Shown: positions 14,370 through 45,503 of the stretch, one piece after another | How positions within the stretch are numbered: the first letter of the stretch is position 1 | How the letters are laid out: each line of letters starts with the position of its first letter | From: Nitrosarchaeum sp. | Lineage (GTDB): Archaea > Thermoproteota > Nitrososphaeria > Nitrososphaerales > Nitrosopumilaceae | NCBI GenBank assembly: GCA_021414365.1 | Contig: JAIOOR010000001.1 | Span: forward strand, 1-45,503 | DNA: 45,503 nt | Reading direction: 5' to 3' | Made by a program: the position numbers and the translations under genes | Notes under the pieces: generated by a model | Told to the model about the DNA's origin: nothing | Databases searched by the model: none | The model's input: the letters and a program-made list of their open reading frames with translations, nothing else

Positions 14370-14374
14370 TATAA

Positions 14375-14458: not shown

Positions 14459-14545
14459 AAAAAGTGTTGGATAACAGTGATTAAAATTTGTTGAGTATAA
14501 GAAAAAACAGAATTTTAGAAAAATAAGAAAAAAGAAAATAATTCT

Positions 14546-15088: not shown

Positions 15089-15105
15089 ACAGAATTATTA
15101 TCAGA

Positions 15106-15145
15106 ATATTATTTAAAGCTAGACAAAATTAGTTGGGACTAAATT
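15106..15145 (-). promoter_or_regulatory. Ferredoxin 1 promoter, copy 1 of a duplicated 40-bp element
   Basis: The minus strand has TTTAAATA centred about 26 nt before the ATG at 15088. The 40-bp block including TATA, the BRE position and about 20 bp further upstream is repeated before the second ferredoxin with only two mismatches. Conservation well beyond TATA/BRE suggests a shared regulator site or a recent duplication. Confidence 0.7.
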
Positions 15146-15249
15146 ATAATTTAACTTAGTTTTCAGGCTTATTTTATCTACAGGTTAAAAACCATAATAA
15201 AGAAAATAGGAAAAAAGAGAATTATTCTTTAATGATATGAACTAGAAGT

Positions 15250-15780
<531 letters not shown>

Positions 15781-15795
15781 TCAACTTTCGTTCAG

Positions 15796-15835
15796 ATATT
15801 ATTTAAAGCTAGACAAAATTAGTGGAGACTAAATT
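15796..15835 (-). promoter_or_regulatory. Ferredoxin 2 promoter, copy 2 of the duplicated 40-bp element
   Basis: TTTAAATA on the minus strand is centred about 26 nt before the ATG at 15777. Over 40 bp it differs from the ferredoxin 1 promoter at two positions only, whereas the 5' untranslated stretches between box and ATG differ. Confidence 0.7.
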
Positions 15836-15915
15836 TAGATATAATAAAAAATCTGTGCTCAAAACCTATTTGGAATTTCCTTACGTTCATATCGTTTGAA
15901 GTTTAGATATAACAA

Positions 15916-16581
15916 ATGGATATTATCAAATTTGATGTTTACCGAGGACCAAACATCGGTATTTACATTAACACAAATGATGATTTTGTTTTTGTTCCAA
16001 TGGGTTTTGCTCAATCTAAAGCTGAAAAGCTTGCAGAATATCTGAATACTCAAATTGTGTATTCTTCTGTTGCTAATACTCGCCTTTTAGGAGCATTAAT
16101 GGTTATGAATAACAATGGAATTTTACTTCCAAAGACGGCATATACTGATGAATACGAATTTCTAAAAAAAGAAACCAAGATGGAGATAGGAGTATTGGAT
16201 TCAAAATACACAGCGCTTGGAAATATAATTTGTTCAAATGATAAAGGGGCAATCGTATCTCCATGGTTATCAAAAGAAGATTGTCAAACAATAGAACAAG
16301 TCTTAGGAATAGAGGTGTTACAGAAAAGAATTTCTGGGTTTAATCAAACTGGTGCAGTAATGGTTGCAAATAATTCTGGCGCTGCAATTCACCCAGAGGC
16401 TGATGAAGAAGATATGAAAATAATTGCAAATGTGATGGGCGTAAAAATAGAACAAACAACCATCAACAATGGAATTCCGTATGTCAAGTCTGGAATGCTA
16501 GTAAACAATCATTCAGTGGTGGTCGGATCTATGACTAGTGGTCCTGAAATTATGATGTTAACTAGGGCTTTTCTAAATTAA
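15916..16581 (+). CDS. eif6: Translation initiation factor aIF6
   Basis: The 221-residue protein shows the five-fold pseudosymmetric IF6 repeats, with recurring lines such as FDVYRGPNIGIY, NTRLLGALMVMNNNG, GNIICSNDKGAIVSP, GAVMVANNSGAAIHPEA and VGSMTSGPEIMMLTRAF. aIF6 binds the large ribosomal subunit and blocks premature joining with the small one. Full length for an archaeal homologue. Its last 20 nt overlap the end of hisS on the opposite strand. Confidence 0.93.
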   Translation: MDIIKFDVYRGPNIGIYINTNDDFVFVPMGFAQSKAEKLAEYLNTQIVYSSVANTRLLGALMVMNNNGILLPKTAYTDEYEFLKKETKMEIGVLDSKYTALGNIICSNDKGAIVSPWLSKEDCQTIEQVLGIEVLQKRISGFNQTGAVMVANNSGAAIHPEADEEDMKIIANVMGVKIEQTTINNGIPYVKSGMLVNNHSVVVGSMTSGPEIMMLTRAFLN

Positions 16582-17842
16582 GGACAAATATAGGATCTTC
16601 TGTAAGCTTTTCAATCTCAATTTGGGATTCAGATCCATCTTGCATGTTTCGTAATACAACTTTACTTTGTTCAAGTTCTTTTGGAGCTACTATAATGCAG
16701 TATTTTGATTCAGATGCTTGTTCAATTTGTTTTTTTAGATTCTTTCCAGATAGATCAATATTAGTTGGAATATTATTTAGTCTAAGTAAAGATGTAATGC
16801 TCATTGCAACTTTTTGCATTTCTTCATTAATGTATAAAACTGAAATTCTAGTTTGTCTTATTTCTGGAATTATTCCCTGATCTTGCATTGTAAGTATAAT
16901 TCTCTCTACACCACCTGCAACACCTGTAGCTCCAATGTCTTCTCTACCAAATGCTTTTGTTAGCGAATCATATCGTCCTCCACCAGCTAATGCACCCAAT
17001 GTTGAATTTTTATCAAATACTTCAAAGACCATTCCAGAGTAATAATCCAATCCCCTGACTATACCAAAATTGATGCGAATGTTTACAACCCCTCTATTTT
17101 CCAGTGAATCAAATAGTTGTTTTAGTTCATCCCATGATTGTAATTTGGATGTATCAAGTTTTGATTCAACTTCGGAAATGGTTCCCTTAATTTGTGAAAA
17201 TTCCAGAATTTTTTCTAGTTTGTTTTCATCATATCTATCTTTGAATTCATTTAGAATTTCTTGCTTTGATTTTTTTTGTATTTTATCAATTGCTCTTAGC
17301 ATATCACCTACTAGTTGCGAATCTTTTGAATCAAATGTTTGGTTGATAAATGATTCAACTAAATTTCTGTGGTTGATATCAATTGTGATATCTTTGAGCA
17401 ATAACGAATCAAATAATCTAGATGTCAGTTCAATAATCTCAGCTTCTGATTCTAATCCTGGCTTTCCGTAAATTTCCACATCCCATTGGTGAAAATATCT
17501 ATACCGTCCTTTTTGTGGTTCATCATATCGAAATACACCACCAAATGCTGAAAATTTTGCAGGTAGTCTCATTGACTTTTGCATGGTAGCATATCTTGTC
17601 AGACCTACGGTAAAGTCAAATCTTAGTGCTACTTCTCTTTCTCCCTTATCTTTGAAATAATAGATTTCATCTTTAATTGCTGGGCCCGATTTTGTCTCCA
17701 ATACAGATAACAACTCAAGTGGAGATGGATCCACAAATGAGAACCCAAATAGGTTTGATAATTTTTTAAAATGTTCCCTAATATGCTCAATGTTTGCATT
17801 TTCCTTTTCTTCAAAGTCTTTCATTCCACGTGGTAGTTCCAA
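16562..17842 (-). CDS. hisS: Histidyl-tRNA synthetase
   Basis: The 426-residue class II synthetase starts with PRGMKDF, has motif 2 (FGGVFRYDEPQKGRYRYFHQWDVEIYG), the histidine-specific motif RGLDYYSGMVFEVF, motif 3 (GGVERIILTM) and a C-terminal anticodon-binding domain. It charges tRNA-His. It is convergent with aIF6, with a 20-nt overlap of the two 3' ends. The ATG at 17840-17842 gives the usual N-terminus. Confidence 0.95.
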   Translation of the reverse strand: MELPRGMKDFEEKENANIEHIREHFKKLSNLFGFSFVDPSPLELLSVLETKSGPAIKDEIYYFKDKGEREVALRFDFTVGLTRYATMQKSMRLPAKFSAFGGVFRYDEPQKGRYRYFHQWDVEIYGKPGLESEAEIIELTSRLFDSLLLKDITIDINHRNLVESFINQTFDSKDSQLVGDMLRAIDKIQKKSKQEILNEFKDRYDENKLEKILEFSQIKGTISEVESKLDTSKLQSWDELKQLFDSLENRGVVNIRINFGIVRGLDYYSGMVFEVFDKNSTLGALAGGGRYDSLTKAFGREDIGATGVAGGVERIILTMQDQGIIPEIRQTRISVLYINEEMQKVAMSITSLLRLNNIPTNIDLSGKNLKKQIEQASESKYCIIVAPKELEQSKVVLRNMQDGSESQIEIEKLTEDPIFVLNLEKP

Positions 17843-33024: not shown

Positions 33025-33096
33025 GGGCCGGTGGTTTAGTGGTATAATGCCTCGTTCGCAACGAGGATGTCGGGGGTTCAATTCCCCCCCGGTCCA
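33025..33096 (+). tRNA. tRNA-Ala (anticodon CGC)
   Basis: A 72-nt cloverleaf: acceptor GGGCCGG/CCGGTCC with the alanine-identity G3:U70 pair, anticodon stem CCTCG/CGAGG, loop TTCGCAA (anticodon CGC), T-arm GGGGGTTCAATTCCCCC and discriminator A. It marks the left edge of the accessory region and would be a plausible integration site, though no duplicated 3' end was found. Confidence 0.95.
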
Positions 33097-33146
33097 TTAA
33101 AATTGTGTATAGGTAAAATTTTAAAAATAAAAAAGAGATTTAGCAT

Positions 33147-33287
33147 CTATCTCTTTTTAGATTTAGACATCTTCAAAAATTGCCATTGTCCTTTAGCATT
33201 AACTTGTACTTTTCTAATACATGTTTTGTCTTGACAATTTTTCATTTTTACAAAATGAATGCCTTTTGAGAGTTTCTTTTTTGCCAT
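33147..33287 (-). CDS. Small basic protein (46 aa)
   Basis: The ATG at 33285-33287 opens 46 codons. The peptide is Lys-rich (starting MAKKKLSKGIHFVKMKNC), with two cysteines five residues apart and a QVNAKGQWQFLKM segment that looks like a short beta hairpin. It is not recognised. It overlaps in a different frame the 3' end of the methyltransferase remnant, which suggests either reuse of that DNA or that one of the two is fortuitous. Confidence 0.6.
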   Translation of the reverse strand: MAKKKLSKGIHFVKMKNCQDKTCIRKVQVNAKGQWQFLKMSKSKKR

Positions 33288-33439
33288 ACTAAGTAACGCC
33301 GCTTGATATTGTTTTTTTCAAAATATTGTTTTAAAGAAATCAATCTTTCTTGTCGAACATATGGGGAATTGCCTATCACAATGTCAAACCCTTTATCTTT
33401 GATCCGAGTCCGCACTGGTACGAATCTTTTAGTTTTTGG
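33251..33439 (-). pseudogene. Remnant of an N6-adenine DNA methyltransferase (type IIG/Eco57I-like)
   Basis: A 63-codon open stretch without a proper start encodes KGFDIVIGNSPYVRQERLIS followed by LKQYFEKNN. This is the catalytic motif IV region of adenine methyltransferases, normally NPPYVRQE, and the residues around it follow Eco57I/PglX-type enzymes. Here NPPY is NSPY (33359-33373). These enzymes are normally several hundred to over 1000 residues, so only a fragment remains, evidence of a lost restriction-modification or BREX-like system. No other parts of the enzyme were found on either side. Confidence 0.6.
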
Positions 33440-33536
33440 TTAATTTTGAGAGATGTTTTGGCCATTTAGTAAAAAATAAGATTGTTGTAAAATATACAAA
33501 GTAGAAAATATTTAACATGTAAAAAAATTCCAAATG

Positions 33537-33576
33537 GCGGTTCAATTCGCTCTCCTCCGCATATGGCGCGGGAGAT
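33537..33576 (+). ncRNA. Candidate small structured RNA (GC-rich hairpin)
   Basis: In very AT-rich DNA this stretch is suddenly GC-rich. CCGC at 33557-33560 pairs with GCGG at 33568-33571, and the stem extends outward through T-G, a mismatch, C-G and T-A. TATTTAA at 33509-33515 lies about 26 nt before 33538, a proper promoter distance. It resembles a tRNA T-loop (GGTTCAATTC) only superficially. The 3' end is unknown. Confidence 0.3.
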
Positions 33577-33709
33577 ATAGTTAGAGAGTTGGATTTTGCA
33601 CTATTTCAGTCTCAAATTATAGATAAAAGGCAATTTCAAAATATGTCTTAGATCATAATTCAAAAGGAATGATTCTGATTTACATAGGTGTTTACTAGAA
33701 TTGTTGGAA

Positions 33710-34495
33710 TTATCTCAGTGCATCTTGATCATTAAACGGCTTGTTTTTATCAATTCTACTCCAGAGATTCAGATTACCAATTATCCCACCAGTAAAAATT
33801 GCATATGCCCAGAGATAGGGAATATCAATCAGATGACCAGTGTAATACTCATTTATGGAATCAAAATACAAAAAACCATAGTCAGCTATCACAAAGCTCA
33901 GCATTCCAAAAAACAATAAGGCCAATGAAAATTTCACACGTCCATTAAAAAACAACATTATGCCAAGAATAGATGGAATCAGCATTAACGAGTCTGCAAT
34001 AGGGTAAGATGCAGACAATATGCGCTCAAATGTGTCTGTCTGTGATTCTGTGGTGTAAAATACTATAATTAAAACAGGTAACACAATAAGTGAAATTGCA
34101 AGTATGTTTTTTCTTGTGATTTGAGATGCAAAAAATTTCAGATACATTACACCAAACATAAAATAAAACCCATACCCTCCTAACCAAAAAAGATCTGCAT
34201 AAGATGGCCAAGTATCATTATTTGTCAACTCGTTTATTGTCCATATTCTTTCAGCTATAAACCACAATGCAATTGCTAATGTAAAAAATATCCATGCCTT
34301 TCCTTGTTTTCCCCTTGACCCCATCTTGAAATTATTTACAATGCATACAACTAGCAAAATACTTGTAAAAACTAGATTCAAGGAATTGGACCAAAACCCA
34401 GCATATGATGAATCAACCATGTTGGATAGAATAATTGCAAAAACTATTACATGTAATGAAATGCCTAGAAAGAAAATACTCTGTTTATTTTCCAA
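33710..34495 (-). CDS. Multi-pass membrane protein (7-8 helices), sensor-like
   Basis: The 261-residue protein starts at TTG 34495 and has about eight hydrophobic helices. A loop after helix 3 reads WPSYADLFWLGGYGF, close to the PSxADxxYLxGY line found in N-terminal seven-helix modules of many membrane sensors. The C-terminus is a short charged tail without kinase or cyclase domain. It begins at the base after the stop of the NitrOD5-like gene (TAATTG), so the two are translated together and may form a signalling pair; that is inference. Confidence 0.75.
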   Translation of the reverse strand: MENKQSIFFLGISLHVIVFAIILSNMVDSSYAGFWSNSLNLVFTSILLVVCIVNNFKMGSRGKQGKAWIFFTLAIALWFIAERIWTINELTNNDTWPSYADLFWLGGYGFYFMFGVMYLKFFASQITRKNILAISLIVLPVLIIVFYTTESQTDTFERILSASYPIADSLMLIPSILGIMLFFNGRVKFSLALLFFGMLSFVIADYGFLYFDSINEYYTGHLIDIPYLWAYAIFTGGIIGNLNLWSRIDKNKPFNDQDALR

Positions 34496-34780
34496 TTACT
34501 TGTTTATTCCTAAAAGAAATTCATTGATTGGCTTTTGGTAGGAAAATTCTTCCAGTTTCTTGTTGATGTTGTTAACTATTGAGAGGTATCCGTCACCAAA
34601 TACTTGTTTTAAGACATCTACAAGATAGTCTGGGTGTTCAAGACAATCATGAAAATAACACTTGTGTTTTAGATATAGATTATAACCTACATCGTCATGT
34701 AATGCGACACTAATATCATATAATGACTGGGATATTGTCATACTAACCAGTGCGGCAGTAACTTTATCCATGTCCTTCAT
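34496..34780 (-). CDS. NitrOD5-like signalling output domain protein
   Basis: The 94-residue, all-helical protein has the sequence pattern LYDISVALHDDVGYNLYLKH, then a Leu/Val heptad and VFGDGYLSIVNNINKKLEEF. This resembles the Nitrosopumilus output domain 5 (NitrOD5), a thaumarchaeal domain attached to signal-transduction proteins or standing alone. The match is by eye. It lies directly upstream of, and abuts, the multi-pass membrane gene. Start ATG 34780; a second in-frame ATG lies 9 nt in. Confidence 0.55.
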   Translation of the reverse strand: MKDMDKVTAALVSMTISQSLYDISVALHDDVGYNLYLKHKCYFHDCLEHPDYLVDVLKQVFGDGYLSIVNNINKKLEEFSYQKPINEFLLGINK

Positions 34781-34839
34781 TGTTTCTTTAAAGTGATATG
34801 ATGTTATTAAATTTAAGAGAATTTGAAAATTAGTCGATT

Positions 34840-35155
34840 TCAGAAAATTTTATTGCCATATTGCTCTTTGATTTTTCTCAAATAAGCGGTGCTAGTTGGG
34901 AATTTTATTTTTAATAGTATGCTAAATTCTAAGAGGACACGGTGAGTGGTGTCTATTTTGACTTGTAATTCATTTGCCAAAGTAGGGCATACTCTGAGAA
35001 TCATCAATGCAAGGCAGATTATTTTCCAATAGCCAAACCAAACTATTCCAATTTGGATTGTGTTTCAAGTGATACTTTGGATGTCCTAAAACAGCGTGGA
35101 TGGAATCCAGTGATTCTATCATAGATGATTTATGAACAAATGAATTTGAAATCAT
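34840..35155 (-). pseudogene. Hypothetical protein gene, apparently frameshifted
   Basis: Two overlapping frames look like one gene. The first (35155-34970, 61 codons) contains KYHLKHNPNWNSLVWLLENN. The second (open from 35004, ending at 34840, 54 codons) contains ANELQVKIDTTHRVLLEFS and ends YLRKIKEQYGNKIF. Both have protein-like composition with no low complexity, and reading from one to the other needs a +1 shift near 34990-35005, giving about 105 residues. An ACTAAAATAC box lies about 26 nt before the first ATG. The family is unknown. Two separate small genes remain possible. Confidence 0.4.
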
Positions 35156-35327
35156 TACAAATTAAGATGCGTGAAGTATTTTAGTTCTAAACCGTTAACA
35201 AAAACATGAGATTTTCAGAAATGGTTAGATTCGGAATAAAATTTCAAAAAAGTACAAACAGGGGAACTAGGATAATTCGCTCAAAACTGACTTTTATTAA
35301 TTGGAATTCTGAGGAATTTCGAGAATT

Positions 35328-35558
35328 TCAAACTAGGCAATTATCATCTATTCCATCTAATTTTATAATACATATTGGCAGGGGAATCAGAACCATGAAA
35401 ATAGGAGATCTTCCAAAATTGCAAAAATCAGCAAATACCATAAGACACAGTATTGTGATTAACAGGGGAACAAAAACCAGAACGATTTGAAAAACAAACC
35501 ATAGTGCAAACACTAGTGACAGATTGAACATAGAACAACACTTAACAAGCATCAGCAT
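35328..35558 (-). CDS. Possible small membrane protein (76 aa)
   Basis: The frame encodes two strongly hydrophobic segments, about 12-42 (LSLVFALWFVFQIVLVFVP) and 54-66 (FMVLIPLPICII), and a short acidic C-terminus. It is divergent from the zinc-finger gene at 35591. A plus-strand frame over the same DNA (35206-35490) is rejected because it is a repetitive Arg/Thr/Ile mirror of this hydrophobic sequence. The function is unknown and the coding status is uncertain. Confidence 0.4.
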   Translation of the reverse strand: MLMLVKCCSMFNLSLVFALWFVFQIVLVFVPLLITILCLMVFADFCNFGRSPIFMVLIPLPICIIKLDGIDDNCLV

Positions 35559-35590
35559 TGTTTATTAGTTCAAAAAGCAATATTTTACGC

Positions 35591-35722
35591 ATGAAAAAAG
35601 TGTGCAGAGAGTGTGGACAGATATTTGAAAACCGTGCAAGCGATTACTGCTCATCAGCATGTGCCCGTAAATATTTGGGAAAAATATCAAATGTTACATC
35701 GCAGAAATTAGAAATGAGTTAG
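35591..35722 (+). CDS. Small zinc-finger protein (43 aa)
   Basis: The ATG at 35591 opens 43 codons with CRECGQIFENRASDYCSSAC, a CxxC-x11-CxxxC treble-clef-like knuckle similar to those in ribosome-associated or FCS-type fingers. A basic, helical tail follows. It is 3 nt upstream of the ribbon-helix-helix gene, so they are probably one transcript. It likely binds nucleic acid or a protein. Confidence 0.65.
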   Translation: MKKVCRECGQIFENRASDYCSSACARKYLGKISNVTSQKLEMS

Positions 35723-35725
35723 CCC

Positions 35726-35875
35726 ATGCCAAAGCGAATAACATTCATGCTAGATGATAATGTGGATAAAAAATTAAGAGCACTGCAAGCAAAAATGATT
35801 CAAACTGAAACTAAATCCGTGAGTTTTTCCAAATTAATTAGCGAGACTGAAAAAAGAGATAAAATAATCCATTAA
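35726..35875 (+). CDS. Ribbon-helix-helix (CopG/Arc-like) DNA-binding protein
   Basis: The ATG at 35726 opens 49 codons: KRITFMLDDNVDKKLRALQAK forms the beta ribbon and helix 1, and SVSFSKLISETEKRD forms the second helix. The length and SFSKLI pattern match thaumarchaeal RHH proteins. Such dimers are transcription repressors or antitoxins. It follows the small zinc finger by 3 nt; no toxin gene is adjacent. Its operator is not identified, but it lies just ahead of the large gene array and could control it, which is inference. Confidence 0.75.
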   Translation: MPKRITFMLDDNVDKKLRALQAKMIQTETKSVSFSKLISETEKRDKIIH

Positions 35876-35948
35876 GACAAATTACATTGTACGTCTAGCA
35901 TCTAAAAGATAAGAAGAACTTATGAATATGTGAATTTTAAAATTATGT

Positions 35949-36143
35949 GTGAATCAATGCAAGAATATCTGCAGAAAACATCCACAGGGAAACAAGAGCA
36001 GGATATACCAAGAGGGCGGGAGTTTTTGCAGAAACTGTGATTATTATTTTGAAGAGTGGATTATACGGTGCCCGTGCTGCAATGCCATGGTGCGGCATAC
36101 TACTAGGAACAGAAAAGATCAGGACATGTTGCAGAGGATATGA
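35949..36143 (+). CDS. Small zinc-ribbon protein, first gene of the array
   Basis: The 64-residue protein from GTG 35949 has seven cysteines: CKNIC near residue 4, CRNC near 28 and CPCC near 42, with the aromatic CDYYFEEWI between the last two. This looks like a double zinc knuckle, and the rest is basic. Its TGA overlaps the ATG of the next gene (ATGA), so it begins a chain of coupled genes that otherwise encode secreted proteins. Role unknown; a regulatory or RNA-binding function is possible. Confidence 0.65.
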   Translation: MNQCKNICRKHPQGNKSRIYQEGGSFCRNCDYYFEEWIIRCPCCNAMVRHTTRNRKDQDMLQRI

Positions 36144-37336
36144 TGAAATATTTTGTAATTTTTTTGATTTTGATTGGAGCGATCGGGATACAAGAATCAT
36201 TTGCAGAGGAAATTTCAACCTTAGATTTTCACACAACACAAATTGAAGACATTGACGGTTCATGGTACTATGTTTCTGAACCTGTTATGATGGGCTCATC
36301 TGATCAGAAGGTGATTTTTCAGAATGTTACATTTTCGTTGCCATACACGACAGATCCACCACGCCGCATATACTCTGATGTGATATTTTCAGACGGAATC
36401 AAAGAAACACTTTCGATTCTTTTTGATTATCCTGATTTTACTGAACATATTGACCCGCAAGCAGGATTAGTTGAAAGAACTGATGGATATTATTTTCTAG
36501 TTACTGCAAACCTGAAAGAGTTATCGCCATTAAAACAAATCAAATCAGGAATTGAACCTGAAAATATACTATGTAGAGAAAACTTGGAATTGATATTCAA
36601 ATATGATAATTCTTCGGCATGTGTGAAATCTGAAACTAAAATTAAATTGATTGAGAGAGGATATGCAATACAAAATGAATTGTTAATAAACAATACAGGC
36701 GTACATTTCCAAAATTCAATTGTAAATATTTTAAATGATTCATCAAATCCAGAATCACAAGTACAACTAGACCCTAAAACAATCACAGTCATGCTTGGAA
36801 TAAACAATACTGTAACTTGGATCAATGAAGACGCCACTCCTCACACACTTGTAAGCAATGAAAATTCTACTTGGCAGACAGGAATTATTTTGCCGGATAA
36901 AGAATCATCTGTGATTTTTAATCAGACTGGGATTTTTGAGTATCATGGAGAACCACATCCTTGGATAAGTGGTAAAGTGATAGTTTTGGAAAATGGAAAT
37001 CCTGAACCCGAATTTAAAGATGAAAAAATTTCTACAATTAAAATTTCCAAAGGAGAGATTGTGAGTGCAAAAGCAATAAAATTCAATGGCTGGACAAATC
37101 AGCCAAATCAGGAAATATTGTTAACTGTAACTGCACCAAATGGAGACATAATATCAACAGGTAAATTATCTTCAATGAATAATGGGACATTTGCTGATGC
37201 CATTACTACTGGTGGTCCATTATGGGAACAGCAAGATGGTATCTATCTAGTTACAGTGCAACAAGGCGATGATCCAACAAACAGTGCTTATTTTGAATTG
37301 GATCTCAAAGATGGAAATATAATTACAGGAAAATGA
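36140..37336 (+). CDS. Secreted protein with a ligand-poor cupredoxin domain
   Basis: The 398-residue protein has a signal peptide (about 1-22). A beta-rich domain follows, then a cysteine-bracketed motif CRENLELIFKYDNSSACV with KLIERGY near 145-175, common in thaumarchaeal surface proteins. A cupredoxin domain covers about 210-285: DATPHTLVSN keeps one His, but the copper loop reads YHGEPHPWISG, where the usual YHCxxHPxM has Gly for Cys and Ile for Met. The C-terminus is another beta domain. It probably lies outside the membrane and may not bind type 1 copper. Its stop overlaps the next ATG. Confidence 0.75.
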   Translation: MMKYFVIFLILIGAIGIQESFAEEISTLDFHTTQIEDIDGSWYYVSEPVMMGSSDQKVIFQNVTFSLPYTTDPPRRIYSDVIFSDGIKETLSILFDYPDFTEHIDPQAGLVERTDGYYFLVTANLKELSPLKQIKSGIEPENILCRENLELIFKYDNSSACVKSETKIKLIERGYAIQNELLINNTGVHFQNSIVNILNDSSNPESQVQLDPKTITVMLGINNTVTWINEDATPHTLVSNENSTWQTGIILPDKESSVIFNQTGIFEYHGEPHPWISGKVIVLENGNPEPEFKDEKISTIKISKGEIVSAKAIKFNGWTNQPNQEILLTVTAPNGDIISTGKLSSMNNGTFADAITTGGPLWEQQDGIYLVTVQQGDDPTNSAYFELDLKDGNIITGK

Positions 37337-38256
37337 AAACTAGACTTTTGATATTATTTGCAATTGTTTTCACCGTTGTTTTTTCATCGTCTGCATATGG
37401 TCTTGTTATGCCGATGACTGCTCAGGAAGTTTTGGACGGATTTGATCTGATTCTTCTTGGGACTGTAACTGATAAAAAACAATCCGAAGGCAATGCTCCA
37501 GTATACACTATAGGAATTGAAGAGATTGTAAAAAAGTCAGACTCTTTTGGAATACCCAAATCAGTACTGGCAATTGGATGCAATCCAAATAGAGGACACA
37601 TAGGTACTCCGTGTCCATCATATGAGATAGGGGATAGGGGACTGTTCTTGCTTGCAGGAACTAAGGATAATTATGAAGTGTCTTTTTACTCCCAAGTCTC
37701 AGAACCGCATTGCACATCAGAGCAATTTCTTGCAAATTACAGAGGTTTGGAGTATGGCTTTTTCTGGACGCAAGATGAACAATCAAAGACATTCTTTACT
37801 GGAAAACCAATTGACATGCACTATAATGTAAACAACAGAGACATGAAAGAAAAAGAATATTCTGTCATATTTTCTGCATATTCTGGCAAGTTTTCTTATT
37901 CTGATATAGTAAATGGTACTGTCAATGAATGTGTTGGCTCAAAGATTGTGACTGCATCGTTTGTTCCAACAGTAATGGGGGTATACGGCTTTAATGCAGG
38001 CTCTGAGGGTGCTTATGGAATGTCGATAATTGATTACGGTTCAACTCCTTTGAAGCAACATAAAGCAGGCGTTCATGGACAAGACACGTGGTGCAGAGAT
38101 GATTTTATTTTAATTCTAAAAAATGACAACACGAAACCAACATTTGATAACTATCCTGCATGCGTTACAAAAGACACTGCTGCAAAACTAATTGAAAGAA
38201 ACTGGGGATTTGTTCTCCCAGAAAGCAACGTATCTGGATATCTTGGAGGTAAATGA
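37333..38256 (+). CDS. Secreted thaumarchaeal protein with the Cys/LIERxW motif
   Basis: The 307-residue protein begins MKTRLLIL and has a signal peptide to about 23. The body has eight cysteines, mostly paired (CNPNRGHIGTPCPSYE, CTSEQ, CVGS). The C-terminus carries WCRDDFILILKND, YPACV and KLIERNWGF, the same motif as in the previous gene. The first half with DLILLGTVTDK and IGDRGLFLLAG resembles OB-like surface proteins. No enzyme is recognised. The next gene begins 9 nt after its stop. Confidence 0.65.
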   Translation: MKTRLLILFAIVFTVVFSSSAYGLVMPMTAQEVLDGFDLILLGTVTDKKQSEGNAPVYTIGIEEIVKKSDSFGIPKSVLAIGCNPNRGHIGTPCPSYEIGDRGLFLLAGTKDNYEVSFYSQVSEPHCTSEQFLANYRGLEYGFFWTQDEQSKTFFTGKPIDMHYNVNNRDMKEKEYSVIFSAYSGKFSYSDIVNGTVNECVGSKIVTASFVPTVMGVYGFNAGSEGAYGMSIIDYGSTPLKQHKAGVHGQDTWCRDDFILILKNDNTKPTFDNYPACVTKDTAAKLIERNWGFVLPESNVSGYLGGK

Positions 38257-38265
38257 TTAAAGAAA

Positions 38266-38958
38266 ATGAAAACTAAACTGTTGATATCAATTGGTATTGG
38301 CACGTTGATAATCATTACTATTATTTTTGGGACTAATTTTATGATAGAGCATAATAATCAACGAGAAACAGAATTAAATCAAAGAGCTATCGCACTAGAT
38401 TCAAAACGAGAATCTGAACCGAACACTATACTAATTTATGATATGCATGACTATGAAGGAATCAGACTATCCATTACACCACATACCTTGGTGATGAATT
38501 TGACTGATGGTAACATTGTAAGATTTGTCAATGATGGTTCTACTCCTGTAAATATTTTTGATAAAGCAAAGGGCATCTGGCGTTTTGATGATGTGAAACC
38601 GTCATCTCAGAGAGTTTTGACGATGAATAACACAGGATTTTATGAAATTCTAGTTCAAAATTCAAGAGAAGGAGAAAGTGGCAGAATTGTGGTATTGGAT
38701 AATAATGTAAACTCTCTTTCAGTTGGCGATAGGATAAAAATGGGAAAGGCAATCATAAGTGATAATTTTCAAGAGTATCCTGAACTTGTGAGTGTTGGAG
38801 TAGGCAGTGGTGAAATAGGCGTGCATGTTACAATTAATAAAAAAGAATTAGAATTACATGAAGATGCAAAATCTTACTATCATGAAAAGTTTAGTAAAAT
38901 AATTCCTTTTGAGGTGCCAATTGTAATTGAATTTGGAGATCCAATAAAACCCGAGTGA
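38266..38958 (+). CDS. Membrane-anchored protein with a degenerate cupredoxin-like domain
   Basis: The 230-residue protein begins MKTKLLISIG and has one membrane helix (about 3-25). Residues 55-145 follow cupredoxin order (VRFVNDGSTPVNIF, then SSQRVLTMNNTGFYEILVQN and GRIVVLD), but no Cys, no suitable His and no Met occupy the copper positions. The C-terminal 80 residues (SVGVGSGEIGVHVTINKKEL) form a separate, unrecognised domain. It shares the 5' start sequence with its neighbours. The stop overlaps a GTG of the next gene. Confidence 0.6.
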   Translation: MKTKLLISIGIGTLIIITIIFGTNFMIEHNNQRETELNQRAIALDSKRESEPNTILIYDMHDYEGIRLSITPHTLVMNLTDGNIVRFVNDGSTPVNIFDKAKGIWRFDDVKPSSQRVLTMNNTGFYEILVQNSREGESGRIVVLDNNVNSLSVGDRIKMGKAIISDNFQEYPELVSVGVGSGEIGVHVTINKKELELHEDAKSYYHEKFSKIIPFEVPIVIEFGDPIKPE

Positions 38959-38960
38959 AA

Positions 38961-40031
38961 ATGAAAACTAGACTTTTGATAATCATTCCAATAATCATTG
39001 CATCTGCAATACTTGGAGTAATCGCATATGATTCTGTATCGCTGGATAGGTTGTGTGCAGACGATGGCGGAAAAAGAATCGGCGACACATGTAGAATTCC
39101 AATAATTACAAACTCTACAAAAAACAATCTATCAAGTGTAGATACATCTCTTATCAGAACAATGAAGCCAAACAGCATGGAATGGTTTTACTATCCAAAC
39201 ACCAAAAACCATAAGAAAGCAGATGCATATCAAACATTTCTGTTAATCAGACTACCCGTATGGATGGGAGGAGATGCAAATGACTCTACCGCATTTAGGG
39301 CATACAGTGCAAAATCCCTTGATGACTCTTGTCTTGTAAAATACTGGGGTGAATATGGCAGACAGAGAATAGAGAACCCGTGTCAGGGTGCAATGTATCG
39401 AGTGATTGACGGTGCAATGACTTTTGGTGCAACTCATAGATCCACTGCAATGACTGCTCTTCCACACTTGGATTTGTCAAGTGATGAAAACGGATTCTTG
39501 TATGTAATGCCTCCAAAGTGGGAGAAAACTGAAAACGGTGTGGTAGGATACGGCAGAGAAATGACTCTTGATGAGATTCGTAACGGCTCTGCATTTCTAG
39601 CAAAGTCATTTGAAAAATCATACTCTGGCTACCCTCACATCCCAACAGAATTTGCAGGATACATACTATCTGAGATTTCGCCTGATAACTATGGTGCTAT
39701 TGTGTCGTACTTGGATTTTCCAAGCAAGTCTGGAGCCATATCTATGACTATTAGCAAGACATCGCTTGGCTTTGTCACTACAGATCTGGCACAACCAAAT
39801 TCAGAGTTTTGGCAGATTGGAAATACTGTAATTAAGATAAGCGGTTCTGCACTGGATAAAAATAGTGATAGACCAGAGTCTCTGAGATATTATACGATAG
39901 AGTTTAACAATGGAATTAATTTTAGAATAGAGGGAAAGAATCTAGAGTTTATCAAACAAGAAATTGTGAAAAATTATTTCCCAGAGTACAAGTATGGTGA
40001 CATGTTTTTGATTTCCAAAACTACAGAATGA
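38961..40031 (+). CDS. Membrane-anchored protein with a possible degenerate Rieske-like domain
   Basis: From ATG 38961 (GTG 38955 is also possible) the protein is 356 residues with an N-terminal membrane helix. The segment near 110-190 reads DDSCLVKYWGEYGRQRIENPCQGAMYRVIDG and then ALPHLDLSSDENGFLYV, which follows the Rieske order CxH, CPCHG, Gly-rich, L, but both cluster histidines and one Cys pair are missing, so a 2Fe-2S cluster is unlikely. The C-terminal half is unrecognised. It probably acts on the outer face of the membrane. The stop overlaps the next ATG. Confidence 0.55.
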   Translation: MKTRLLIIIPIIIASAILGVIAYDSVSLDRLCADDGGKRIGDTCRIPIITNSTKNNLSSVDTSLIRTMKPNSMEWFYYPNTKNHKKADAYQTFLLIRLPVWMGGDANDSTAFRAYSAKSLDDSCLVKYWGEYGRQRIENPCQGAMYRVIDGAMTFGATHRSTAMTALPHLDLSSDENGFLYVMPPKWEKTENGVVGYGREMTLDEIRNGSAFLAKSFEKSYSGYPHIPTEFAGYILSEISPDNYGAIVSYLDFPSKSGAISMTISKTSLGFVTTDLAQPNSEFWQIGNTVIKISGSALDKNSDRPESLRYYTIEFNNGINFRIEGKNLEFIKQEIVKNYFPEYKYGDMFLISKTTE

Positions 40032-40279
40032 AAATGAAAACTAAATCAATAATTGCAATCATTTGTCTAGGTGTAGGTACAATCTTGGCAGTATTAGGAA
40101 TGATAAATTATTATCAAGTCAGTAAGGCAATAGAAGAATATGCATCGTCTCCATTAGCAAAACCGGGTAGCAGTTCACCATATCCTGCCTATGATGAAGC
40201 ATTACTATACCTTGATGTGAGTGGAATATTTTTTGTAACAAGTGGGATTCTGTTTATAATTAAGAGAAAAGGAAAATGA
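40028..40279 (+). CDS. Small two-helix membrane protein of the array
   Basis: The 83-residue protein begins MKMKTKSII, with helices at about 7-27 and 60-77 joined by a 30-residue external loop rich in Ser, Pro and Tyr (GSSSPYPAYDEALLY), and ends in a basic tail. No family is recognised. ATGA overlaps link it at both ends to the neighbours. Confidence 0.6.
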   Translation: MKMKTKSIIAIICLGVGTILAVLGMINYYQVSKAIEEYASSPLAKPGSSSPYPAYDEALLYLDVSGIFFVTSGILFIIKRKGK

Positions 40280-40563
40280 AAAATAAATTTTTGATAACAG
40301 GAATTGGTCTGCTTGTGTTTGGACTGGCTAACTTGTTTTCATATTTGCCAATATCACTTGGAATAGCATTACAAAACAGACCGTTTCCTTTTGAACATAT
40401 TCAGAAGGTAATTCCATCTGAAGGACATGGAACCACTGTTCAGACAGGCTATTTGCCAATAGAGAATGCAGTTAATGACCCATACTGGCTTTTTTGGTCA
40501 CTTGCACTGTATGCCGGAATTGTAATACTTTGCTTTTATGGAATCAATGAGGTTAGAAAATGA
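40276..40563 (+). CDS. Small two-helix membrane protein of the array
   Basis: The 95-residue protein begins MKNKFLITGIG, with helices at about 5-30 and 70-90, and an external loop of 40 residues (PFEHIQKVIPSEGHGTTVQT). The layout matches the preceding gene but sequence similarity is limited to the first residues. ATGA overlaps at both ends. Function unknown. Confidence 0.6.
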   Translation: MKNKFLITGIGLLVFGLANLFSYLPISLGIALQNRPFPFEHIQKVIPSEGHGTTVQTGYLPIENAVNDPYWLFWSLALYAGIVILCFYGINEVRK

Positions 40564-41405
40564 AAACTAAGCTTTTGATAATCACAATACTAGTAATTGC
40601 ATGTGGTGTATCTTTTTTTACTGTATTTCAGATTAGTCATGATCTACAGACATATTCCATAAGCATTGATGGAAACTACATACACATAAACTCTGAATAC
40701 TCATGTGCAACAGTATCGCTCGAACGACTATCGCCTGATTCCTTAAAACAAGTAAAATTACAAAATGCTACTTTCTTTGAGATTAATGACACAGACATAA
40801 AGGATATTCCTGTTCTAGAAGAGCTGATTCAAGCAACACACAAGATTGATTTTCCTACAAAGGATCATTCGCGTACGTATGTTGGATTAAGGGAGTTTGT
40901 AGATTACGAATTTTTCATAATGGATAAAGTCATTTCAAAATACGGCGGAACACAGGATGATTATTTTTTAAAACTGGATTCAGATCTTGATAAACGATTA
41001 GCAGATCCAAATAAACAAGGGTTCAAAAATGAGTTTGATGCTCCTCAGATTATTTATCACGATAAAATCTATACATTAGGAGATACAGTATTTTGGACAT
41101 CAGATGAGGATGAGCTTCATCAGCTAGTGATTCGCCTAGATGATTCTCTTAGAGACAATTCCAAATTTATCATTCTTACTGATGATGATATGAAACATGT
41201 GCCAAAAATAAAGCAACTAATTGACATCATCGGAACAGAATATGATGATATCATAGCATCAAAAAGTGTTAAAGAAAATCCAGACTGGAAAAATTACAGG
41301 GATTGGTTTAAGCAAAAAAGATTGGAATTTGAAACAGATGAATCAAAGATACATGGATTTATGTATAAAGAAGAATATTATTCGCTTAGTTTTCCCATAT
41401 GTTGA
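40560..41405 (+). CDS. Secreted protein with an internal duplication, last gene of the array
   Basis: The 281-residue protein begins MKTKLLIIT with a membrane helix or signal peptide (about 4-24). Two related halves can be seen: FFEINDTDIKDIPVLEELI near 75 and FIILTDDDMKHVPKIKQLI near 210, each followed by a Tyr-rich or Asp-rich segment. Each half has the same order, so an ancient duplication is likely. No catalytic motif is visible. Downstream is a hairpin and then a convergent gene, so the array ends here. Confidence 0.65.
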   Translation: MKTKLLIITILVIACGVSFFTVFQISHDLQTYSISIDGNYIHINSEYSCATVSLERLSPDSLKQVKLQNATFFEINDTDIKDIPVLEELIQATHKIDFPTKDHSRTYVGLREFVDYEFFIMDKVISKYGGTQDDYFLKLDSDLDKRLADPNKQGFKNEFDAPQIIYHDKIYTLGDTVFWTSDEDELHQLVIRLDDSLRDNSKFIILTDDDMKHVPKIKQLIDIIGTEYDDIIASKSVKENPDWKNYRDWFKQKRLEFETDESKIHGFMYKEEYYSLSFPIC

Positions 41406-41421
41406 AATGAACAGGACGGTA

Positions 41422-41450
41422 CCACATTTTATTATGTATTACTAATGTGG
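41422..41450. repeat. Hairpin downstream of the array
   Basis: CCACATT at 41422-41428 pairs with AATGTGG at 41444-41450 around a 15-nt AT-rich loop. It lies 17 nt past the last stop of the array and may mark transcript end or RNA processing. A GC-richer stretch follows to about 41510 without a gene. Confidence 0.4.
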
Positions 41451-41525
41451 GTTCTATTCGATTCATGGGACATGTTCTCTGTGTTCGAGGTCGGGACATA
41501 GGCGTACTTTTAATGATGATTTTTA

Positions 41526-41822
41526 CTATTCTTTAAAATAGATGGCTTGTCTAATTTCTGCCAATCTTTTGATTATTACCTGAACTATTTCATCATTCTC
41601 TGATTGATTAGGAAGTCTTCTATTGAATGTTGTAAAATGATTACCAAACTTATGAAAAATTTCATCATATACCATACCAAAAACAAAATCTTCAACATTC
41701 GTTAAATGAAATCCTTGTTTGACTTTAGGATCAATAAACATATTCAAATTCTCTTTTGAATGATTTATTGCTTGATCAATTATCTTATCTAAACTTCCTC
41801 TATCAAATTCATTTAATCCCAT
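41526..41822 (-). CDS. Hypothetical helical protein (98 aa)
   Basis: The 98-residue product is soluble and predicted mostly helical, with a mixed-charge N-terminus (NEFDRGSLDKIIDQAINHS) and a central VEDFVFGMVYDEIFHKFGNHF. No cysteines, signal peptide or known motif. It is convergent with the gene array. Family not recognised; the protein-like composition and clean ATG make it a probable gene. Confidence 0.55.
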   Translation of the reverse strand: MGLNEFDRGSLDKIIDQAINHSKENLNMFIDPKVKQGFHLTNVEDFVFGMVYDEIFHKFGNHFTTFNRRLPNQSENDEIVQVIIKRLAEIRQAIYFKE

Positions 41823-41934
41823 TGATTAGCAATTACGTGTTTAATAGATATACATGATCTGGTAATCATAGTTCACTTAAAGTCAGTAATTTACATATGA
41901 TCCGTTTGAAATATTTCTCGCCTATTCTATAATC

Positions 41935-42120
41935 ATGCCAAAAACAGGCGAAATTTGTCAGACCTCTGGACATTACAAGTTCTCAGGTCATACTGACGGA
42001 AGTATTGGATGTCATCCAACAGAAAATGAAAGGGACATACCAATGAAAAGAGGAGAACCCTTTCCTCCAATAAGGTCATGTGGTAAAGGTGCGTTTTGGA
42101 CGTATGTTAGACCACTATGA
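41935..42120 (+). CDS. YjzC-like small protein (61 aa)
   Basis: The protein has three cysteines (EICQTSGHYKF, SIGCHPTENER, SCGKGAFW) and reads GHTDGSIGC, then RDIPMKRGEPFPPIRSC. This is the arrangement of the YjzC family, small proteins found in bacteria and archaea that have no assigned role, probably a small metal-binding fold. The ATG at 41935 directly follows a CGCCTATTCTATAA element that recurs at 42908. Confidence 0.65.
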   Translation: MPKTGEICQTSGHYKFSGHTDGSIGCHPTENERDIPMKRGEPFPPIRSCGKGAFWTYVRPL

Positions 42121-42203
42121 TTATTTTTTAAATCTTAATTGCTATTTTTGTATGAATATCATACATAACGTTTAACTCAATCATACGTAGGATCAACATA
42201 GAT

Positions 42204-42888
42204 TTGCCTTTTGTATCTGTTTATGTTGATGAATCTGGAGATTTAGGTTTTGATAATGGGGCATCTAAGTTTTTTACAATTGGGTATGCTTTTAGTTATA
42301 ATCGACATCCTTTTGCAGAAAGTAGTATGGTAAAACGGGCACTAAAAAAAATTAATGATGGTTCAAAAAAACAAAAAATTCCTGAATTCAAATTCTCTGC
42401 TGATAGTGATGAAACGAAGATTTCTTACTAAAATACAAGAGATGAATGTTGTATTAGGTGCATTTTGTATAAGTAAAGATTCGGTAAAAAATGAATTAAA
42501 ATTAGATCAAGGCAGACTTTATAGATATTTAGTAGTTGATACAATCATCACCCATCTTGTAAATGATCATTTCAAATCACATGATCCATACAATTCAATA
42601 CGTTTTGTTATTGATAGAAGTCTTTCTAAACAAAAAAGAAAGGATTTTGATCAATACTGTGATGATAAAACATCTTTTCGTTCTTGGGAACAAGACAAGA
42701 ATATGGATTACAAGGTGGTTGTAACTCATGAAGATTCAAAAGCAGTACCCATGTTACAAGTTGCAGATTATATTGCAGGGTGTGTTCAACGAAAATTTCA
42801 AATGAATGATTCTGTATGTTATGATTTGATTATGGATAAAATCAAATACAAAGAACAGTGGGATAAATTCGGTAAAATTAATTGGTGA
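42204..42888 (+). pseudogene. DUF3800 protein, interrupted by a frameshift
   Basis: The first frame from TTG 42204 has FVSVYVDESGDLGFDNG, the acidic DESGD motif of DUF3800, and stops at 42429-42431. The next frame continues with FVIDRSLSKQKRKDFD and ends with MLQVADYIAGCVQRK, two further DUF3800 motifs. Dropping one T at 42421-42423 joins the frames into about 227 residues. DUF3800 proteins have an RNase H-like fold and often sit in mobile or defence islands. Here the acidic residues all remain, so decay is either very recent or only apparent. Confidence 0.75.
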
Positions 42889-42944
42889 CTCTCAGCCTAC
42901 TTGTCCCCGCCTATTCCATAAGCTTCATTCTTTCGGCTAAGATC

Positions 42945-42962
42945 CTATTGATTACTCAATAG
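42945..42962. terminator. Hairpin between DUF3800 and the integrase unit
   Basis: CTATTGA and TCAATAG pair perfectly around a 4-nt loop (TTAC). It lies 57 nt past the DUF3800 stop and 38 nt past the end of the small ORF facing it, so it may end both transcripts. Another short palindrome, ATAACACATATGTTAT, lies 20 nt further. Confidence 0.35.
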
Positions 42963-42999
42963 ACTTTACCCACCTATATGATAACACATATGTTATTAT

Positions 43000-43101
43000 T
43001 TATTCTTCTCTACTGATGGCATTTTGAATCAAAGTTTTCCACTTATTCTCACCCTCGATAGTAATTCCACAGGCTTCGGCAGGTGTATTGCCATCTAGCA
43101 T
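43000..43101 (-). CDS. Small helical protein or C-terminal fragment downstream of the recombinase
   Basis: A 33-codon frame from ATG 43099-43101 encodes MLDGNTPAEACGITIEGENK and WKTLIQNAISREE. The same frame stays open upstream to 43125 (IDEKILLG), starting within the recombinase stop region. The TPAEACGI turn looks like a helix-turn-helix core. It may be a mini-protein coupled to the recombinase, in the manner of an excisionase, or the tail of a longer lost gene; neither is proven. Confidence 0.45.
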   Translation of the reverse strand: MLDGNTPAEACGITIEGENKWKTLIQNAISREE

Positions 43102-43120
43102 TCCAAGTAAAATTTTCTCA

Positions 43121-44473
43121 TCAATTTACCATTATGCCTTTAATTTTTCTCTGAAAATCCTTCTGGGTTCTCTTGCCATACCATTTCTTCAAGGTCTCAG
43201 TACCTTCATGAGACATTTCAGCAACTAGATTGTAATTGTAATCAGTGGCAATAAGCCACATTTGGATTCCAAAATGTCTAAAGCCGTAATTTGCCCTGAA
43301 ATATAGTCCAAAATCAGACTTTTGAAAACCTATCATAGACAAGATTTTTTTGAAAAACTTGTTATCCCTAGATACTGAGCTAGTCAGAATTTTATCATAT
43401 GTTTTGGATTCGAATTTGGTATTGTTATCTTCCCAAAACAGATATTTTTTTCCCTGTGATATTCGTGTGTTGTAAAATTGTTCTAATGGTTCAACAAATT
43501 CAGAATCCAAAATGTATTTGTCAAAATCATCATGTGTTTTGTTTTCATGAACTTCAATGTGACATACTCTTCTGACGTAAGAATAGATCTTATCACCCTT
43601 GAATTTTGCATAGGATACAACCTTTTCATCGGTTAACTTTGTACCATCTGCACCATCTACATATTCAACTAGCTGGTCAATGAACTCCATTTTTGCCAAT
43701 TCAATTAGATAAACTGTTGAAGGTCTAACAAAAGTCCATGTCTTGACACCAAACTTTAGATAGTCTTCAATTGAATAATGTTTCGACAGTAATTTTTTTG
43801 CTTCTATAATTTGTTCAGATGTAATATGCAAGTCAGATGATTTTTCTTTTGGTTTTTGCCCACTTATTCTTAATTGGATTCCTTCATTTTCACTAATTTC
43901 TATTCCTAGTCCGTATTTTATGGCGTGTCTTATTGCCTGTCTGTTTGACCAGTTAGGCTCACCATCAACAATATCATAATTTGCAACTTCTAGCAATGCA
44001 TCTACCATGTTTGGAATGACTTCCCTCCAATTTTCTTTGGTAATATCATCAGGATGAATTTTGAATTTGTGAGTTACAAAACCAAGCACAATTCTGGCAA
44101 AACGTGTCTGATTTTTGTACTCAAATTTTGCATGATTTTTTCTAGTCCAGTTTTTGAACAAGTTAGTATTAAAAATCTCAGATTCTGAGCGTAACTGCTT
44201 TTGGATTGTAACTATTGTGTTTTTTTGCCCTGCTAATTGATAATAGTTGGATCCATCAACCTTTTCAATTTTTTTAGAATTTCTTAGAGGATAGATGTAG
44301 CTTTTTGAAAATTGTTCTCTTGTTTGATGGAAATAATTTGCTAGCTCGGTTGGTGTATGTGGTTTTATTTTTAATAATTCTAGAATTTTATTTTGAATAT
44401 TATCTTTTGATATGGTAATACCGCCTAATCTAGAATGATTGGAAGTGATTTTTGCACTTAATACACTGTCCAA
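43121..44473 (-). CDS. Tyrosine recombinase (integrase) with N-terminal winged helix
   Basis: The 450-residue protein has an N-terminal winged-helix-like domain (about 25-80, ILELLKIKPHTPTELANYF), a core-binding-like helical region, and a C-terminal catalytic domain. In it YGFRHFGIQMWL gives the Arg-x-x-His type box and MSHEGTETLKKWYGKR gives the late His and the nucleophile Tyr near 434. Other catalytic residues (first Arg, Lys) are not certain by eye. It would carry out site-specific recombination of an integrated element. The upstream 700 nt hold inverted repeats that may be its target or operator. Confidence 0.75.
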   Translation of the reverse strand: MDSVLSAKITSNHSRLGGITISKDNIQNKILELLKIKPHTPTELANYFHQTREQFSKSYIYPLRNSKKIEKVDGSNYYQLAGQKNTIVTIQKQLRSESEIFNTNLFKNWTRKNHAKFEYKNQTRFARIVLGFVTHKFKIHPDDITKENWREVIPNMVDALLEVANYDIVDGEPNWSNRQAIRHAIKYGLGIEISENEGIQLRISGQKPKEKSSDLHITSEQIIEAKKLLSKHYSIEDYLKFGVKTWTFVRPSTVYLIELAKMEFIDQLVEYVDGADGTKLTDEKVVSYAKFKGDKIYSYVRRVCHIEVHENKTHDDFDKYILDSEFVEPLEQFYNTRISQGKKYLFWEDNNTKFESKTYDKILTSSVSRDNKFFKKILSMIGFQKSDFGLYFRANYGFRHFGIQMWLIATDYNYNLVAEMSHEGTETLKKWYGKRTQKDFQRKIKGIMVN

Positions 44474-44696
44474 TTATCCCAACCTCTGAAAGTGGGATTG
44501 AGATCAATCTCATAATTTGATACAGAAAGATTTAGACTCTTTCCCACTATTTGCTTCAACAAAAAACGATATGCATGAGAGTTTTAAAATCTTACTGAGA
44601 GAATATAGACAACAAAATGATATTCAGGCATAAATTTGAGGATGATTTTGTTTAATTTCTCCACAAATCAGATCTTCATAATTTTCATGGATCTAG

Positions 44697-44773
44697 TGTC
44701 CGATAGTATGAAAGTCTAAATTGGTTGTTGAAGCAAATTTAGGGAAATCCACACCATCGGACAATACTTTCAT
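44697..44773. repeat. Interleaved inverted repeats upstream of the recombinase
   Basis: Three complementary pairs lie within 77 nt. X is TGTCCGAT (44697-44704) with ATCGGACA (44756-44763). Y is ATGAAAGT (44708-44715) with ACTTTCAT (44766-44773). C is CTAAATT (44716-44722) with AATTTAG (44736-44742). The order X-Y-C-C'-X'-Y' means X and Y pairs cross each other, so as RNA it would be a pseudoknot or an either/or switch; as DNA it could be a recombinase site. Confidence 0.65.
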
Positions 44774-44830
44774 GAAATTATTTCTATAAAAAATGATGGA
44801 TTTCATCATGGTCTATCATTTTATCACTTT

Positions 44831-44961
44831 CCATTTTTTAAAAATGGTTTTCGTTTTCATTTTTTCAAGTATGTGAACTATTTCGTGGGCATGCATTTTC
44901 CATTTGCGTGGGCATGGAAAAATAAAAAATGGTCATTTTTAAAAAACGTGTGCCCACGAAA
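44831..44961. repeat. Nested palindromes with a repeated CGTGGGCA word
   Basis: A perfect palindrome with one central base, CCATTTTTTAAAAATGG, lies at 44831-44847. TTTCGTGGGCA at 44881-44891 is inverted at 44951-44961. A further CGTGGGCA copy lies at 44907-44914, and TTTTCCAT (44896-44903) pairs with ATGGAAAA (44914-44921) inside. No gene overlaps convincingly. It has the look of a protein-binding region such as a replication, partition or recombination site. Confidence 0.6.
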
Positions 44962-45176
44962 AAAATGGTTACAAAATGGATTTCCAAAATGAAACTTTGG
45001 GCATATCTAATAGAGTGAAAAAACGTGAGAATAAAATATTTCACGAACATTCCTAAATGAAATCATTTTGTTAAAGCCACGCTAAATATCACGTTTTATA
45101 CCACGCTTTGTGCCTACAAAGTAGTAAAAAATAGTTTCCAGAAACTATTATACATAAACAATGATTACAAATTTCT

Positions 45177-45503
45177 ATGAAGGTTTTTGACGGAAAAAAG
45201 GCTGCTCAAGAATACATGTCCAAACATACTCTTGCATTTTCTACTCCAGAACTAACTCTGATGAGGTTTGCATTTTGGTTAGGAGATACTGTTCCAGATC
45301 CAGAAAACAAAGATAACACAATTCCAAGAATGCTTACATTTATGGTAGAACAAGATTTTGCGCCCATTTTAATCGATGATGATAAATATGAACCATCAGG
45401 TGCTGTAAGAAGTTCAAACGTTTATGGAAATGCATTTACAGAAACCAGTTCTGATGGTAAGTTTTGTTCTGAATGCGGTACAACATTATCAAAAACTGCA
45501 AAG
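45177..45503 (+). CDS. Hypothetical zinc-finger-containing protein (3' end cut by window edge)
   Basis: An ATG at 45177 opens 109 codons with no stop before the window edge. The protein-like sequence begins MKVFDGKKAAQEYMSKHTLA and includes FAFWLGDTVPDPENKD. Near the edge is a CSECGTTLSK pair, half of a zinc ribbon. No family is recognised. A TAGTTTCCAGAAACTA palindrome lies about 30 nt before the start and may be an operator. Confidence 0.7.
   Translation, partial: MKVFDGKKAAQEYMSKHTLAFSTPELTLMRFAFWLGDTVPDPENKDNTIPRMLTFMVEQDFAPILIDDDKYEPSGAVRSSNVYGNAFTETSSDGKFCSECGTTLSKTAK

Follow-up and report, generated by a model that had tools for sequence, protein, structure and literature searches.

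Why should genes with unrelated bodies begin, one after another, with nearly the same 25 nucleotides (nt), some of which lie before the start codon? The question is raised by a 45,503-nt stretch of Nitrosarchaeum sp. DNA (contig JAIOOR010000001.1, assembly GCA_021414365.1; hereafter the window), in which eight co-oriented open reading frames (ORFs) lie end to end at 35949-41405 and six successive starts carry a version of the block GAAAATGAAAACTAGACTTTTGATA (Table 1). An earlier interpretation of the letters alone, the sequence-only reading, described this array and took the block for either a recombination seam or a translation re-initiation element. Both proposals find support below and may describe one thing, although re-initiation itself is something we infer. 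The block, called the seam here, probably has a dual role, as a stop-restart linker and as a seam for cassette exchange.

In this reading, each unit would be a gene that encodes a secreted or membrane protein and opens with the common seam of ~25 nt. As a linker, the seam would close three frames with stops at -6, +1 and +8, so that nearly every frame of an upstream gene would be acceptable at the join without loss of the following start. As an exchange site, it would supply the common DNA for the gain, loss or replacement of cassettes, most probably through ordinary homologous recombination over ~25-30 bp. With stops and start fused, the frame of a join would matter little and the chain would stay translatable. 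Most arrays open with a lead gene, which has a separate start block.

In the ocean and in soils, few cells are more abundant than those of ammonia-oxidizing archaea, and to our knowledge little is understood of how they alter the face they present to viruses, grazers and neighbours. The arrays look like a modular means of rebuilding the cell surface, which would presumably differ from cell to cell. If this is true, a DNA word that closes three frames, reopens one and marks exchange points would be a simple solution to the frame problem that modular gene assembly faces. The seam also serves as a search handle, with which numerous secreted proteins that lack annotation come to light and metagenomes can be used to test directly for surface variation in these archaea.

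The seam is conserved as DNA

Across arrays, the consensus of the seam is TTAGAAAATGAAAACTAGACTTTTGATAATnATTGG, about 25 nt at the start of each unit, and the extended consensus is TAGAAAATGAAAACTAG. The seam is conserved as DNA and not merely as protein. Among 89 starts chosen by protein motif only, Thr3 is encoded by ACT in 96% (34% in bulk genes), Leu5 by CTT in 72% (21%), Leu6 by TTG in 86% (20%) and Ile7 by ATA in 84% (30%). The same codons are kept by 25 starts that were selected by no search pattern (17/19, 13/17, 16/22 and 15/20, respectively). Conservation sets in at about -5 and fades past about +26, in a profile that was selected on -4 to +20 and of which the flanks alone are independent. 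Synonymous conservation is strong within the block, and identity is at background just past it where the adjoining cassette differs; for example, loci L070 and L079 share 80-100% identity per 20 nt across the 80 nt 5' of the seam and reach background soon past it. A signal-peptide need alone cannot explain the block, as the sequence-only reading had argued, given that synonymous codons and bases 5' of the ATG are both conserved.

Other parts of that description hold with amendments. The junctions had been described as nearly all ATGA or GTGA overlaps; four of the seven are 4-nt ATGA overlaps with the ATG of the block as start, two have a 2-nt gap (TGA-AA-ATG) and one has a 9-nt gap (38256/38266). 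The block was said to straddle the previous stop each time, and the stop lies within or touches it in five of six cases. The gene bodies are indeed unrelated, with no mutual BLASTP similarity outside the signal peptide among five of the six cassette proteins (the 81-aa protein at 40034, under the seam-score limit, was excluded).

These results bear on an old tandem duplication, in which one ancestral gene was copied, the bodies diverged and the start was kept for its signal peptide, without seam-specific exchange. Such a history would suit the secreted or membrane-type products and similar N-termini of 90 of 94 cassettes. A signal peptide, however, fixes neither synonymous codons nor bases 5' of the ATG, and cassettes 80-91% identical occur in different arrays and species, where their neighbours are unrelated. 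Duplication is already contradicted by the data and is hardly credible.

The window is the entire contig C25 of a 1.875-Mb draft genome (G000). A second version, 85-87% identical, of window 7004-17653 is present in contig C15 and of 29900-33100 in C12. The bin probably mixes two Nitrosarchaeum species and C25 may come from the second, which qualifies any statement about one genome. Within the window, the 14-mer core with at most two mismatches has 9 matches against 2.4 expected, a count reached in 0 of 100 shuffles, and the reversed pattern has no match in the whole genome. The assembly holds 20 relaxed matches, which include several further arrays; for 17 of the 20, another match lies no more than 2.5 kb away (random mean 1.0), which is not the scatter over secreted genes that would have spoken against the sequence-only reading. 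Across the genus, matches are found in 8 of 18 genomes, and the reversed-pattern control is empty. The exact 27-nt pattern occurs in 35 stretches among 84,980 species genomes. These belong to Nitrosarchaeum, Nitrosopumilus or records labelled Thaumarchaeota/Nitrososphaerota, with two exceptions on contigs in bacterial bins (OFTM22 and OFTM376). Both are taken as mis-binned because the OFTM22 cassette is 86% identical to a cassette of Nitrosopumilus OFTM383, which belongs to the same series of isolates. Seam-joined arrays thus recur in Nitrosarchaeum and Nitrosopumilus and are essentially absent elsewhere in this set. No account of them was found in the open-access full-text literature.

Breakpoints and cassette exchange

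The species comparisons use one genome per species, largely fragmentary metagenome assemblies, examined in stretches around matches. In pairwise BLASTN of array loci, similarity begins 1-10 nt 5' of a seam ATG and stops 0-30 nt past the next. The ends of similarity fall within -12 to +30 of a seam in 92 of 370 cases against 3.5% expected (binomial p ~1e-50, for ends that are not independent). Similarity breaks at the seam in 115 of 120 pairs of related DNA that touch one and continues through it in 5. The corresponding figures for 74 ordinary tight gene starts are 10 pairs and 94 (n=104), but this control contains conserved operons, so the contrast is overstated.

Individual loci display the same pattern. 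The last cassettes of L065 (G000) and L079 (G017) are 91% identical from 1 nt 5' of the ATG to a point within the next seam; the downstream flanks are colinear at 82%, and the upstream cassettes are unrelated. L060 and L067 have left flanks 96.7% identical, then differing lead genes and first cassettes, and beyond these the same two cassettes at 86%, beginning 5 nt 5' of the seam. Exactly one cassette is common to each of the pairs L131/L148, L074/L128 and L144/L155. In the window array, cassette 1 has relatives 80-84% identical in DNA in three other arrays, with similarity from 3-9 nt 5' of the ATG, and cassette 3 has relatives 51-54% identical in L133 (Nitrosopumilus OFTM383) and L075 (Nitrosarchaeum G006). 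Cassette 4 is absent in G006 between the relatives of cassettes 3 and 5, and cassettes related to cassette 5 are found in L063 and L075. Gain, loss and replacement of cassettes with breakpoints at the block, which the sequence-only reading had named as support if found between strains, are observed between species, and cassette exchange at the seam is well supported.

The arrays resemble integrons and CALINs (clusters of attC sites lacking integron-integrases), archaeal ones included, in having co-oriented cassettes with a common site between them, exchanged as units and often with unknown products (PMC9668308). They differ in having no attC-like motif, inverted repeat or IntI, and in a junction of ~25-30 nt that overlaps coding starts and stops. 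A dedicated site-specific system, either an integron or an unknown recombinase, could move cassettes at the seam. Such a system would fit the co-orientation, the use of one sequence at every junction and the site left over where an array ends. It would also fit the location of the window array within an inserted island that contains an integrase-like ORF (43121-44473, C-terminus judged by eye only). Against this, GTTRRRY lies near 22 of 142 seams compared with 27 in shuffles, and paired motifs occur at 1 of 142; IntI (TIGR02249) exceeds its cut-off in none of 18 genomes from the genus; the seam has no inverted repeat (arm 4.05 vs 4.13 shuffled); and the integrase-like ORF matches no family and is absent from other array loci. 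Of these tests, attC is stronger than IntI because CALINs may lack IntI. A site-specific system is very unlikely, and integron or CALIN membership was rejected on both attC (142 seams) and IntI (18 genomes).

Other candidates were also dropped. The seam as an inverted-repeat recombination site fails on the same arm lengths, and an integrase as a general feature of arrays fails on its absence from the other loci. TnpB/IS605 acting at TTGAT within the seam was rejected, as TnpB is present in G000 only and absent in six other genomes checked, four of which nevertheless carry seams. Viral carriage of arrays was dropped, with 0 matches to the seam in IMG/VR.

The nearest working analogue is the vmp switching of Borrelia hermsii, of which the arrays are not claimed to be members. 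There, Upstream and Downstream Homology Sequences are used, with an Upstream Homology Sequence of ~60 nt over the signal-peptide start (PMC3974855). Both systems have short common DNA at the signal-peptide end of surface genes with variable bodies, which in Borrelia is thought to anchor recombination (PMC3974855), and the arrays likewise have a common 5' sequence on genes with unrelated bodies and breakpoints there, at species level. In B. hermsii, one gene is swapped at one expression site from silent copies, with an additional 214-bp downstream homology (PMC3974855), whereas the arrays, from an unrelated lineage, chain many intact genes head to tail, each with a seam and three-frame stops. 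The arrays might go further and constitute a recombinase-free analogue of integrons, in which a universal three-frame stop-restart seam lets an expressed array take up almost any secreted cassette by short-homology recombination and trade between species remodels the cell surface; this is a tentative proposal about which we have some doubt.

Three-frame stops, proposed restart and orphan seams

The extended consensus contains TAG (-6), TGA (+1) and TAG (+8), one per frame, around a single ATG. Upstream ORFs at 146 sites stop at +1 in 43, at +8 in 29 and at -6 in 17, so that 89 use one of the three positions, as in translational-coupling junctions. The proteins of genes stopping at +8 have tails ...ENEN, which are the block read in another frame. 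The +8 stop is present in 123 of 142 seams and 44 of 399 ordinary ATG starts. At least two frames are closed within 17 nt in 133/142 and 95/399, respectively, and all three frames in 46/142 and 4/399. Because only about a third of seams possess it, the full three-frame form is a consensus only.

Ordinary ATGA stop-start overlaps are consistent with re-initiation and translational coupling. The seam is like them in overlapping stop and start. Unlike them, it keeps ~25 nt fixed where ordinary overlaps have no common flanking sequence, and has a second stop at +8 that ends about one-fifth of upstream genes.

A second feature of the arrays is the orphan seam. Among 109 high-scoring seams, 25 open an ORF shorter than 40 aa, and orphans are enriched at array ends (21/51 terminal vs 8/74 internal; odds ratio 5.8, p 2e-4). 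Neither a signal peptide nor re-initiation would by itself lead one to expect this enrichment, though a final gene that had broken recently would give the same picture.

Several points weigh against the dual role, in addition to the operons in the breakpoint control. About 40% of the 146 upstream stops lie outside the three seam positions. Array loci were partly retrieved with the seam pattern itself. No strain-level event was observed, all comparisons being between species. Homology of 25-30 bp may be too short for recombination in these archaea. Finally, seams are about as alike within a genome (0.755) as between genomes (0.768), and within-genome homogenization by gene conversion is unsupported.

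This last result is what functional constraint predicts, and it fits the main rival, in which the seam is a translation element only. Selection for termination-reinitiation in polycistronic mRNAs would maintain it, and the survival of rearrangements that respect gene boundaries would mimic seam-specific breakpoints. The fusion of stops and start agrees with this rival, as do Shine-Dalgarno-like motifs, which are commoner 5' of seams than of ordinary starts (48/142 vs 45/399). It does not account for the gene-less orphan seams, chiefly at array ends, for the fixed codons at +12 to +20 beyond the start, or for the different block on lead genes. Nor does it explain why the +8 stop persists where the upstream gene does not use it, with retention in 30/36 cases where that gene ends at +1 and in 39/44 where it ends elsewhere. 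A purely translational element is thus rather unlikely, and the combination of linker and exchange site is preferred.

The window array, its island and its products

The coordinates of the window array are collected in Table 1.

Table 1. Features of the window array and its surroundings, with seam matches scored against GAAAATGAAAACTAGACTTTTGATA.
Feature	Position	Strand	Remarks
tRNA-Ala(CGC)	33025-33096		
Insertion carrying the array, 12.0 kb	33097..45130		adjoins tRNA-Ala(CGC); edges uncertain by a few nt
Cysteine-rich (zinc-ribbon-like) ORF, 64 aa	35949..36143	+	overlaps lead gene by ATGA; weak RUBY_RBDX match
Lead gene, 398 aa	36140..37336	+	begins MMKYFVIFLILIG; start block unlike that of cassettes (lead-type class)
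Seam 1	37329..37353	+	25/25; upstream stop TGA at +1
Cassette 1, 307 aa	37333..38256	+	ORF (...AYGLVMPMTA...)
Seam 2	38262..38286	+	23/25; upstream stop 9 nt 5' of ATG
Cassette 2, 230 aa	38266..38958	+	ORF; family of 5 in BLAST clustering
Seam 3	38957..38981	+	25/25; upstream TGA at -5
Cassette 3, 356 aa	38961..40031	+	ORF
Seam 4	40030..40054	+	18/25, only first ~15 nt retained; upstream TGA at -5
Cassette 4, 81 aa	40034..40279	+	ORF; membrane protein
Seam 5	40272..40296	+	22/25; upstream TGA at +1
Cassette 5, 95 aa	40276..40563	+	ORF; membrane protein
Seam 6	40556..40580	+	23/25; upstream TGA at +1
Cassette 6, 281 aa	40560..41405	+	ORF; final gene of array

The lead genes that open most arrays have a start of a different type (MKYFVI...). 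These genes, such as L066:10599(-), L069:9797(-) and L115:2721(+), have a common second start block, ATGAAATATTTTGT, and in several of them a TATGAACTTCC-like stretch, which might be a promoter or operator they have in common, lies ~30 nt upstream. The window lead gene has a cupredoxin-like domain (PF13473, E 1.1e-5, slightly below the curated cut-off), and an ORF similar to the cysteine-rich one precedes the lead gene in L075.

An N-terminal hydrophobic stretch is found in 90 of the 94 cassette proteins and a C-terminal one, often ending in WRKRK, in 35. Few cassettes are recognised by Pfam: one Kunitz, one Monooxygenase_B-like, a beta-propeller, cupredoxins and three DUF4367. These hydrophobic segments and domains suggest products that are secreted or at the surface. 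The Kunitz/BPTI protease-inhibitor domain (E 1.7e-11) ends the archaeal cassette protein L075:8035-9228 (+). AlphaFold2 models of window cassettes 1 and 3 are uninformative (predicted local distance difference test score 37-38). In the BLAST clustering, cassettes chain via common C-terminal membrane segments, so the largest of the resulting groups, with 32 members, does not represent a true family.

The window array is carried by the 12.0-kb insertion, because equivalent sites join tRNA-Ala directly to the sequence of window 45127-45503. Eleven such sites, ten of them in relatives and one in the second copy that this assembly contains, have this arrangement and lack the insertion. Its flanks have almost no attachment-site repeat, a mere ~5-nt repeat (TAAAA) being visible. 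The position beside a tRNA gene is like that of integrated mobile genetic elements of Thaumarchaeota (PMC6563490), whose description makes no mention of Nitrosarchaeum, signal peptides or surface proteins. Other arrays lie off the window's island, and the seams are not its attachment sites.

Several further observations concern the island. Its right end holds the 450-aa ORF at 43121-44473 (-). On inspection by eye, the C-terminus of this ORF resembles a tyrosine integrase, but the ORF has no match in Pfam, PHROGs or PDB sequences and the identity is unconfirmed. A DUF3800-X RNA (Rfam RF02984; 49 bits, above the gathering score) lies at 42883-42975 (-), adjoined by a DUF3800 gene split across two frames (42204-42431 and 42355-42888). 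At 33534-33563, GCGGTTCAATTCGCTCTCCTCCGCA resembles a tRNA 3' end by eye and is possibly the scar of another integration within the same island. Close to it, 33248-33415 (-) encodes a 55-aa remnant (GNSPYVRQERL) that by eye is like a piece of a type II restriction-methylase gene.

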